Of a stretch of DNA of 38,290 nucleotides, positions 3,189-9,745 are shown one piece after another. Position 1 is the stretch's first letter, and each line of letters opens with the position of its first letter. The stretch spans positions 1-38,290 of IMG/VR virus record IMGVR_UViG_3300043399_000330, one strand, 5' to 3'. This DNA comes from a virus. The position numbers were made by a program, and so were the translations under genes. The notes beneath the pieces are model-generated. The model did no database searches. It had not been told where the DNA came from and worked only from the letters and a program-made list of their open reading frames with translations.

Positions 3189-3264
3189 GCTTCATCTATT
3201 CGCAGGCGCTGGTGGAGGCATACTCGCCGGCCAGCCGCTCAAAGGTCAGGAGTGGCGCGCATGA
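3181..3264 (+). pseudogene. Remnant of cytosine-C5 DNA methyltransferase (motif I only, 27 codons)
   Basis: The peptide begins MNELHLFAGAGGGILAG, which matches the start and SAM-binding motif I (F-x-G-x-G-G) of phage DNA cytosine-C5 methyltransferases. The frame then ends after ten unrelated residues. A full enzyme needs about 300 or more residues with the catalytic Pro-Cys motif, and none follows in any frame here. An AAGGAG site five bases upstream is still intact, so the stub is probably translated. It overlaps the upstream gene by eight bases and the HNH gene by four. I infer a deletion or replacement that removed the enzyme but kept its start. Confidence 0.65.
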
Positions 3265-3803
3265 ACTGGGAGCCAGGACAGCCGCTCAACCGCTCTGGAC
3301 GATGGTGCCTGCTTACTACGCTGGAGACCATCCGCGAGCAGTGCCGCATGGCTGATGACTGTTGGGAGTGGTGCGGCGCATGCACGGGCGACGGTGAACC
3401 GTCTATGTTCTTTCGTGGCAAGAGCTGCACCGTCTCGCGCGCGGTCTACCTGCTGGCAACCGGCAAGACGCCGCGCGGTGACTGCTTTCTGATCCGCGCC
3501 TGCGGCAATCGGCAATGCGTCAATCCGGCGCACCTGGTGCAGCGCGGCAAGGGTAAGCATATGCGCGAACTCGGCGCTACGTCGTATGGCGGCGCGGTGC
3601 GCGCGGCCAAGATTGCCGCCACGATGCAAGCCAAGTGCAGTCCGCTCACGCGAGATCAAGCGCTGGAGATACGGCACAGCACCACGCCAGTCCGCAAGCT
3701 CGCGGAGGAGTACGGCTGCTCGCCTCGCACCGTCCAGCTCATCAAACAGAACAAGCGATGGGTGGATTTCTCCAGCCCGTTCGCGCAACTCATGAGGATG
3801 TAA
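3261..3803 (+). CDS. HNH homing-type endonuclease (180 aa)
   Basis: Residues about 30-100 resemble HNH endonucleases of the HNH_3 type: DCWEWCGA, then SRAVYLLATGKTPRG, then ACGNRQCVNPAHL with the Cys and the terminal N-P-x-H-L. The C-terminus (LTRDQALEIRHS...VRKLAEEYGCSPRTVQLI) is a helix-turn-helix found in homing HNH enzymes. The His often found before the first Cys is replaced (IRAC), so activity may be reduced. ATG 3261 follows AGGAG by eight bases; a GTG at 3252 is too close to it. It overlaps the methyltransferase remnant, suggesting it arrived as a mobile gene and displaced that enzyme. Confidence 0.75.
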   Translation: MNWEPGQPLNRSGRWCLLTTLETIREQCRMADDCWEWCGACTGDGEPSMFFRGKSCTVSRAVYLLATGKTPRGDCFLIRACGNRQCVNPAHLVQRGKGKHMRELGATSYGGAVRAAKIAATMQAKCSPLTRDQALEIRHSTTPVRKLAEEYGCSPRTVQLIKQNKRWVDFSSPFAQLMRM

Positions 3804-3805
3804 CC

Positions 3806-4318
3806 ATGCCAACCAGCAAGAAACCACGCAAGGCCTACCGCCCCAAGCCAGTGATCCGCGACACGATCAGCTATGCGATGGCCGGCGTCACGCCGATGAT
3901 GGATAGCAAAGATACGGCCATGCTCAAGCGCATTGCCAACAGCGACGCACTGGCCGCGCTGTGCCAAGGCCGCGCCACCGTCAGGGATATGGACGTGCTG
4001 GTGCACATGCACAACACCGTGGAGGCGCTGTGGCTGCAAGGCTTCGGAAAGGAGTACGCCGAGGTGCTGATTCGCGGCAAGGCGGCCCTGCTGGACGTGT
4101 GCAACCGTGGAGCGCAGTCCAAGCGCTTCCTGGTGAAGGCCGAGGAGCGCCAGGCGCTAAACGACTTGCTGGAGCTGCACGACGCTCAGATGGAGGTCGT
4201 CACCGTGCGTGACATGGTGAAGGCCGACGCAAAGGCCATCCACGAGATTGTCACTGGCAAGGCTATCGTGATCCGCGACAACGCCAAGATTGCCGTAGTC
4301 AAGGGGATGCGTGCATAA
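3806..4318 (+). CDS. Conserved hypothetical phage protein (170 aa)
   Basis: It begins MPTSKKPRKAYRPKPV, a Lys/Arg-rich N-terminus, and continues as a mostly helical protein with a segment LVHMHNTVEALWLQGFGKEY. I recall this basic N-terminus from uncharacterised proteins of related phages but cannot name a function. The start at 3806 follows GAGGATG, and the gene ends just before a rightward intrinsic terminator, so it is the last gene of the cluster. A role in host takeover or early replication is possible. Confidence 0.75.
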   Translation: MPTSKKPRKAYRPKPVIRDTISYAMAGVTPMMDSKDTAMLKRIANSDALAALCQGRATVRDMDVLVHMHNTVEALWLQGFGKEYAEVLIRGKAALLDVCNRGAQSKRFLVKAEERQALNDLLELHDAQMEVVTVRDMVKADAKAIHEIVTGKAIVIRDNAKIAVVKGMRA

Positions 4319-4369
4319 TGTGACGGCAGCGATCGGGAAGTCACTGCTAGATCTCCAATGACATCATTG

Positions 4370-4395
4370 CCCGGCCTTGTGCCGGGTCTTTTTTT
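4370..4395 (+). terminator. Rho-independent terminator after the rightward early cluster
   Basis: Stem CCCGGC (4370-4375), loop CTTGT, stem GCCGGG (4381-4386), followed by TCTTTTTTT. It lies 52 bases after the stop of the 170-residue gene. Confidence 0.9.
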
Positions 4396-4410
4396 GTGGG
4401 TAGAATGACA

Positions 4411-4632
4411 GCGTGACGGTAAAGCGACACACCGGCAATGCGCCGACACACCGCAGGGTTGGGGGAAACCTGGCCGCCGTCACGCATCACGCATGTGGAT
4501 TGGTTACAAGCGCCACGATGGCCGGTTCGCCGGCTTGGCTGTCGCGCCAGTCCGCAGCCGTGATGGTGGTGTGATAGGCCTTGGCGGGCGTGTCGACGCC
4601 ATCAGCAGGAAACCCGCTTCGGCGGGTTTTTT
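4411..4632 (+). ncRNA. Putative structured non-coding RNA
   Basis: No convincing gene occupies 4396-4632 but the rightward strand can fold strongly. GCGTGACGG (4411-4419) pairs perfectly with CCGTCACGC (4477-4485) and encloses two possible hairpins, one with a GGGGG loop near 4461. ATCACG (4486-4491) pairs with CGTGAT (4559-4564) and encloses GCCGG-TTCG-CCGGC (4521-4534) inside a GCCA/TGGC helix. GGCGT-GTCG-ACGCC (4587-4600) follows, then an intrinsic terminator (4611-4632). A promoter TTGTGC/18/TAGAAT with its -10 at 4401-4406 would start the RNA exactly at the first helix. It matches no RNA family that I recognise. Confidence 0.55.
4611..4632 (+). terminator. Rho-independent terminator ending the 4.4-4.6 kb transcript
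   Basis: Stem AACCCGC (4611-4617), TTCG tetraloop, GCGGGTT (4622-4628) running into a T-tract to 4632. It faces the 3' end of the leftward cassette and would also stop read-through toward it. Confidence 0.9.
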
Positions 4633-4636
4633 GTTG

Positions 4637-4831
4637 CTAGAACGGGATGTCGTTGTCCCAGTGTTCGCAGTCGTTGGGCTGGTACCGGTACTCTGGTGGG
4701 ATGGGTCCGAACTTCTCGCAGGTGTTGTTGGCAAACAACATGCACGTTGCACAGCGCGGCTTGCTGGTGAAGGCAATCAGGCGATCACGCTCGCGCACGG
4801 CGGCTTCGTAGTCTTGCTGGTCTTTGTTCAT
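4637..4831 (-). CDS. Small cysteine-motif protein (64 aa)
   Basis: The centre reads CATCMLFANNTCEKFG and a later DCEHW adds a fourth Cys; the C-x2-C, C, C arrangement is typical of small zinc-binding phage proteins. The N-terminus is a charged helix (MNKDQQDYEAAVRERDRLIA). It is the last gene of the leftward recombination cassette, overlapping the VRR-NUC gene by four bases, so it may assist nuclease or DNA binding. Function not established. Confidence 0.75.
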   Translation of the reverse strand: MNKDQQDYEAAVRERDRLIAFTSKPRCATCMLFANNTCEKFGPIPPEYRYQPNDCEHWDNDIPF

Positions 4832-9441: not shown

Positions 9442-9490
9442 GTTGGCTCCTTGTGTGCTGCACCTTCAGGAAGTTCTGTTCGTGCAGTGG

Positions 9491-9525
9491 TTGCAACTGT
9501 ACCGGGTTTTCTGGTACAGTGCAAG
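9491..9525. promoter_or_regulatory. Palindromic divergent promoter/operator
   Basis: ACTGTACC (9496-9503) and GGTACAGT (9513-9520) form a perfect 8-base inverted repeat with a 9-base spacer, flanked by TTGC and GCAA. Rightward promoter: TTGCAA (9491-9496), 18 bases, TACAGT (9515-9520). Leftward promoter on the minus strand: TTGCAC (9525-9520), 18 bases, TACAGT (9501-9496). Because the element is symmetric the two promoters occupy the same DNA, so polymerase can hold only one direction at a time. A dimer of the HTH protein encoded just downstream is the obvious candidate ligand. Confidence 0.65.
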
Positions 9526-9559
9526 CACTCCCGCAAATAAAGTTTCAGAGGTGCGATTT

Positions 9560-9745
9560 ATGATGACTATTGAGCAGATCAAGGACAGGCTGAGGGATGC
9601 CAACCTCAAGCGGGTCGCTGAGAACGCTGGCATCCATCCGGCCACGGTCTACAGGTTCATGCAGGAGGATTCCAAGCCTCTGTACGAGACGGTCAAGGCG
9701 CTGTCGGACTACCTGACACGCAGGGAGGCCACGATCAATGGCTGA
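9560..9745 (+). CDS. Small helix-turn-helix regulator (61 aa)
   Basis: A compact protein, almost all of it HTH: MTIEQIKDRLRDANLKRVAE, then NAGIHPATVYRFMQE as turn and recognition helix, then a final helix LYETVKALSDYLTRRE. It resembles short Xre/Cro-type or MerR-like phage regulators. The ATG at 9560 is preceded by an AGAGGTG site. It lies 34 bases after a palindromic operator that covers promoters in both directions, so autoregulation and control of the recombination cassette are likely. Its end overlaps the primase start by eight bases, coupling it to replication. Confidence 0.85.
   Translation: MMTIEQIKDRLRDANLKRVAENAGIHPATVYRFMQEDSKPLYETVKALSDYLTRREATING

Follow-up and report, generated by a model that had tools for sequence, protein, structure and literature searches.

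A modular structured RNA with exchangeable payload loops is encoded by many unrelated phages

Our analysis shows that the window, a 38,290-base IMG/VR virus record within which all positions are counted, carries on its plus strand a noncoding structured phage RNA gene (4411-4634) made of three tandem modules and its own terminator (Table 1). The central hairpin of this RNA is a member of an RNA family that is widespread among phages and combines a conserved stem with a payload loop that can be exchanged; together with its neighboring modules, it represents a large family of mix-and-match RNAs, unrecognised until now, that occurs in many unrelated phages. The original prediction of a new phage-encoded structured RNA at this locus is borne out by the fold, the lack of coding signal, and covariation in relatives, and it was conservative. 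Beyond it, we find the RNA to be modular, to recur across many phages, and to be linked with their tRNA clusters and with late leaders.

Table 1. Parts of the RNA gene and the signals immediately upstream of it
Feature	Position	Strand	Description and basis
Upstream-operon intrinsic terminator	4369-4395	+	Ends the HNH/phrog_20828 operon; scan match
Candidate promoter	4378-4406	+	TTGTGC, 17 nt, TAGAAT, with weak -35; predicted from sequence
Module 1	4411-4485	+	Closing helix of 9-10 bp, GCGTGACGG(T)/(G)CCGTCACGC; MFE fold
Module 2 (B hairpin)	4486-4564	+	Match to covariance model R1, and covariation
Hypervariable payload	4505-4545	+	Apical domain of the B hairpin; fold and family comparison
Module 3, short A-type	4561-4604	+	Helix TGATGGTG/CGCCATCA; fold and family covariation
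Intrinsic terminator, RNA end	4604-4635	+	AAACCCGC-TTCG-GCGGGTTTTTT; MFE stem 4604-4617/4622-4635

The RNA gene sits between convergent operons. Upstream on the plus strand lie an HNH-like ORF (3252-3803) and a phrog_20828 ORF (3635-4318), whose operon terminator insulates the RNA gene. The right flank is a minus-strand replication/recombination operon ending at 4637, with a phrog_23504 ORF, a VRR-NUC-like gene, a helicase, a Cas4-type exonuclease, SSB, and Sak4. There is no same-strand gene 3' of the RNA, and the terminase is 8 kb off. A protein search found no relatives of the 64-aa and 227-aa flanking ORFs, and among the neighbors of the RNA there were no recognised defence or anti-defence genes, only generic helicase matches. 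The TAGAAT -10 box proposed to start transcription at the first helix is present at 4401-4406, but the TTGTGC -35 fits at 3 of 6 positions and a promoter scan of the window did not report the box; the start site therefore remains a candidate. Elsewhere in the window, the intergenic stretch 9442-9565, which separates the Sak4-type gene from a small HTH-like ORF, contains the dyad CTGTACCGGGTTTTCTGGTACAG, has strong fold scores on both strands, and is probably an operator.

The RNA strand of 4411-4634 folds with an MFE of -123.2 kcal/mol, compared with -96.4 +/- 5.1 in dinucleotide shuffles (z = -5.3; 0/200), whereas the antisense strand folds less well (z = -3.1). In a fold scan over the record, the region ranks in the top 3 among 382 windows. 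ORFs overlapping the RNA have a GC3 of 0.55 to 0.62 versus 0.74 to 0.80 in the flanking real genes; coding in any frame was thus rejected, in agreement with the earlier reading that these roughly 235 bases hold no convincing gene.

Most of the structural elements first noticed in the sequence recur in the fold. The long-range helix 4411-4419/4477-4485 is real and reaches 10 bp (4411-4420 with 4476-4485). It is followed by UA, and a hairpin (CAGG..CCTG) lies close to its 3' strand, a layout in which alone module 1 appears tRNA-like. The second helix, ATCACG/CGTGAT (6 bp, 4486-4491 with 4559-4564), is the outer helix of the B hairpin and extends past a 2x2 internal loop (CA/GC) into an inner helix of 11 bp, TGTGGATTGG(T)/(G)CCAGTCCGCA (4494-4504 with 4546-4556). 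The nested GCCGG-TTCG-CCGGC hairpin was found as the payload tip CCGG-TTCG-CCGG (4520-4535). The GGCGT-GTCG-ACGCC hairpin, on the other hand, is absent from the MFE structure, in which its 3' arm pairs with GGTGGTGT (4565-4572/4596-4603). In the register of the family, TGATGGTG (4561-4568) pairs instead with CGCCATCA (4597-4604) with one G-U pair, at a cost of 7.5 kcal/mol relative to the MFE; the 5' strand of this helix has bases in common with the 3' strand of the outer B helix. The strong terminator expected at the 3' end is present with a U tract, and a matching stretch of Pseudomonas phage D3 is annotated as a terminator.

The hairpin at 4481-4569 carries the motif GCATGNGGATT..AGTCCNCAGCC, with 30 to 60 nt in between. 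The family search started from loci with the same helicase module as the window, among which two relatives, L061 and L009, have almost the same motif directly past VRR-NUC. The L061 stem, CACCAACACG-CA-TGAGGATTG..CAGTCCTCA-GC-CGTGTTGGTG, is the window stem with pairs changed on both sides. Scanning IMG/VR with the pattern GCATGNGGATTN{30,60}AGTCCNCAGCC gave matches in at least 119 viral contigs, against about 2 estimated by chance, whereas 257 Gb of bacterial genomes gave 12 matches, which is about the chance number. Eleven of these are chance matches, and one, in Variovorax (L213), is real, being the sole one with flanking features. The contrast between viral contigs and bacterial genomes indicates that the B element is virus-borne. 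Covariance model R1 matches window positions 4481-4569 with an E value of 3e-11, the window being one of its 40 training sequences.

Because the scan pattern fixes 20 bases, pairs among them are uninformative. The N/N pair, which is left free, is standard in 120/120 distinct elements and occurs as five pair types (G-C in 71, A-T in 30, C-G in 11, G-T in 7, and T-G in 1), never unpaired; the window, which has the conserved GCATGNGGATT/AGTCCNCAGCC stem, carries U-G here. The outer helix is also free in the pattern, and most of its 8 positions pair, with T-A/A-T exchanges. Across 40 sequences, 93.9% of the B-stem cells are paired, double-changed cells number 59 versus 17 after shuffling (0/500), and pairing is clearly lost when the alignment is slid. 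The apical 30 to 60 nt are hypervariable. Thus, the compensatory changes by which the original prediction could be judged are present in relatives, in the B stem, at the N/N pair, and in the module described next.

The B hairpin is followed by a second module (A) closed by TGWTGGTG/CACCWACA, a helix that in the window, too, shares the 3' strand of B. The strand past the B stem (TGTTGGTG or TGATGGTG) has its exact reverse complement 25 to 220 nt downstream in 45/115 cases, with 0.75 expected from shuffles. Many relatives have a tRNA-like version of this module. In the commonest A type, AATGC, the closing helix encloses two hairpins, one D-arm-like and one T-arm-like, separated by a variable middle; the T-arm-like hairpin directly adjoins the 3' strand, and the loops of both arms are complementary (GCTGA/TCAGC or ACTGA/TCAGT), as in a kissing interaction. 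In an alignment in which about 15 of 22 rows had been picked by closing-helix complementarity, and the arms and kissing helix had not, 97.5% of the A-module cells are paired and pairs with double changes number 9 versus 3.6 after shuffling (0/500). Pairing reaches 100% in the kissing helix, one pair of which covaries. The A-type modules of the window are of types other than AATGC, and the kissing loop was not found in them. Model R2 (tRNA-like A, AATGC type) gave no significant match at the window RNA, so that the window modules can be read as tRNA-like by layout only; neither ARAGORN nor Rfam found a tRNA in the window.

The strand common to B and A has a variable base at which a middle T is accompanied by A on both sides and a middle A by T on both sides (10/10 unambiguous cases). 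Because of this three-way covariation with the upstream and downstream strands, the shared strand must be held by two partners, and full pairing of either B or A shortens the other. This fits with strand exchange, although it is possible that B and A coexist with shortened helices, as in the MFE structure of the window.

Some modules are tRNA-derived. T-arms with the standard loop occur in the modules about 30 times above shuffles, eight A modules begin with a tRNA-like TA and D-arm sequence, and one B payload (L124) is called a tRNA by ARAGORN. In one array (L149) a tRNA-Met lies 4 nt 5' of the B element, and in another (L182) a tRNA-like insert is nested within the A module. In these three cases, real or partial tRNAs replace modules or lie within them, which suggests an exchange of tRNAs and modules inside one array.

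The modules are shuffled among phages. We found 53 pairs of B payloads that are at least 80% identical, several of them 100%; most occur without flank homology, with different A modules, and in unrelated phages, and A modules likewise recur beside different B payloads. A second, gammaproteobacterial B family, AACAGGTAAG.GC..GC.CTT.CCGTTGTG, is present in at least 120 contigs, with 70 distinct payloads among 93 elements. A lambdoid E. coli prophage (L220) and the P1-like phage RCS47 have one payload in common. We also observed a sub-module, GTTACGGGGC..GTTAAGAAAGC, that aquatic phages share with E. coli phage swi2 (L009:3780-3890, L061:3268-3325, and L202 near 1600).

Each phage record has one or two B copies at one locus. 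In the isolated phages examined that have the A core, it mostly lies in unannotated gaps within or beside tRNA clusters, and tRNAs within 1 kb of elements are co-oriented with them in 53/53 cases. Wherever these genes were found in gammaproteobacterial phages, they lay on the strand of the element, with Q on its upstream side (30/30) and holin downstream of it (16/16). Terminase genes adjoin at least 20/120 of the beta-type elements, and downstream genes are co-oriented with the element in 81/114 cases. Relative to the helicase module, the element occurs in both orientations (a relative versus the window), and the L061 RNA resembles that of the window in having a strong terminator of its own. 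Downstream of the same helicase/VRR-NUC module we saw a further intergenic region, also conserved and structured, that contains the bidirectional terminator GCGCCT-AAAA-AGGCGC (L032:4820-5080 and L014:7350-7650, both on the minus strand).

The gammaproteobacterial form matches 1,116 of 5,426 complete E. coli genomes (about 20%), nearly all unannotated among the matches listed. In phage P1, two A modules occupy 69,818-70,200, without annotation in its record. In the same phage (L357, AF234172), plp, which overlaps tRNA-Thr, and upl are annotated at 69,472-70,041 on the strand opposite to tandem B-A modules and are possibly spurious, lying antisense to structured RNA. Among 300 Burkholderiales genomes, the B model matches 2 and the A model 7, and the A model matches 2/369 genomes in a sample of their class; judging from these sequence matches, the hosts of the window-type RNA are probably Burkholderiales.

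An Rfam search assigned the window RNA to no family at threshold, as had been anticipated, and neither the window nor the relatives scanned gave a match to GOLLD or ROOL, large structured phage/prophage RNAs that occur partly near tRNAs and are much larger than the window RNA. Matches to rsmX, istR, and Trp_leader were far below threshold and all fell on the terminator half. An RsmX/CsrA sponge (RF02144), for which several GGA loops would also be expected, was rejected, since its match of 27 bits lies below the gathering score of 56 and covers the terminator half. Nucleotide BLAST matched the terminator only, and a literature search that reached few subscription papers found no description of this RNA family. 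An anti-CRISPR-repeat mimic was considered for GTGGATTG, which we take to resemble a type I-C CRISPR repeat end, and was rejected because the fold has no matching repeat hairpin. A GGGGG loop had been suggested to pair with ribosome-binding sites; the search for antisense targets within the phage genome gave no significant or long match, leaving this idea and self-antisense targeting unsupported.

One of the closest known RNAs is STnc100 (RF02076), a gammaproteobacterial and also prophage-encoded sRNA, whose model matches a P1 module directly 3' of a B-gamma hairpin with 33.4 bits (gathering, 47). The STnc100 consensus has the layout of the A module: within a closing helix of 7 bp come one hairpin next to the helix, a middle that varies, and a 5-bp hairpin that adjoins the 3' strand. 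However, the P1-matching part of the model lacks the B-beta hairpin and an exchanged payload, the model misses the other A modules of P1 and lambdoid phages, and it matches neither the B family nor, at 47 bits or otherwise, the window RNA. STnc100_4 was verified by Northern blotting in EHEC (PMC5331693), and PasD, regarded as descending from the same ancestor as STnc100, has been found on Hfq (PMC13192938). Structured stable RNAs are also found in the tRNA clusters of T4 (rnaC and rnaD) and T5 (RNA1, RNA2, RNAI, RNAIII, RNAIV, and RNA2H) (PMC9697503), several of them annotated as tRNA-like. They do not share the B motif, and models R1 and R2 gave no matches in T4, T5, or P22, so the relation is one of niche and kind rather than demonstrated homology; the P22 sncRNAs (PMC13397905) were dropped as expression evidence for the same lack of matches. 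Phage tRNAs resemble A modules in the acceptor-like helix, the D- and T-arm positions, and the elbow contact, whereas A modules have a variable middle of about 20 to 100 nt and mostly no usual anticodon arm.

We propose that the RNA would be made during infection and act in trans as a stable scaffold displaying variable loops to host molecules. The payload loops could pair with host RNAs, as is thought for the sub-threshold relative STnc100/PasD, or the RNA could, as a tRNA-like bait, lure host proteins that handle RNA or serve in defence; the base-pairing and decoy versions are indistinguishable from sequence. The payload would be the specificity element, and its swapping between phages would re-target the RNA. 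Payload exchange, the single locus per phage, and the expression of STnc100/PasD favor such a trans-acting RNA. The structural and family part of this explanation is nearly certain; the scaffold mechanism itself has slightly less than an even chance, and the two taken together stand at about even. Because elements sit in late leaders, many of them in the Q-holin interval or immediately preceding terminase genes, a cis role also deserves weight: a leader or trailer might steer processing, stability, or read-through of late transcripts, as an RNase-processed spacer or by antitermination of the HK022 put kind, and the overlapping B and A strands look like a switch. This we consider unlikely, since the window and L061 RNAs end in their own strong terminators, the former without a same-strand gene downstream, the contexts are many, with the element facing either way with respect to the same helicase module, and such diverse payloads are hard to reconcile with a cis spacer.

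The tight association with phage tRNA clusters, the tRNA-derived modules, and the payload exchange between unrelated phages would suit a tRNA-like decoy aimed specifically at host defence nucleases that target tRNAs, such as anticodon nucleases, with payloads tracking local defences. We rate this as quite improbable, given that most payloads lack an anticodon arm and that only generic helicase matches accompany the window RNA. A DNA element, either a cos/pac packaging site or an attC-like recombination cassette site recognised as a folded single strand, might account for the adjoining terminase genes and for conserved stems flanking exchanged payloads. It is very unlikely in view of the strand bias with tRNAs (53/53) and downstream genes (81/114), the tRNA-derived modules, the own terminators, the kissing-loop covariation, and the distance of the window terminase. 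The position between convergent operons would fit a mere spacer with two terminators and chance hairpins, an explanation contradicted by covariation and by recurrence in more than 100 viruses and therefore of negligible probability.

Returning to the trans-acting scaffold, it is conceivable, if somewhat doubtful, that phages share exchangeable RNA cassettes, each a conserved hairpin with a tRNA-like scaffold, whose hypervariable payload loops pass between unrelated phages and so re-target a host factor, with the stable cluster RNAs of T4 and T5 as functional counterparts. Tightly packed phage genomes keep a structured RNA of 200 to 300 nt with covarying stems, and they do so in many unrelated phages. 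The covariance models, the payload families, and P1 offer handles on the decades-old question of what purpose the additional stable, tRNA-like RNAs of phage tRNA clusters serve, and the shuffling of modules would be an unusual, cassette-like evolution acting on RNA domains.
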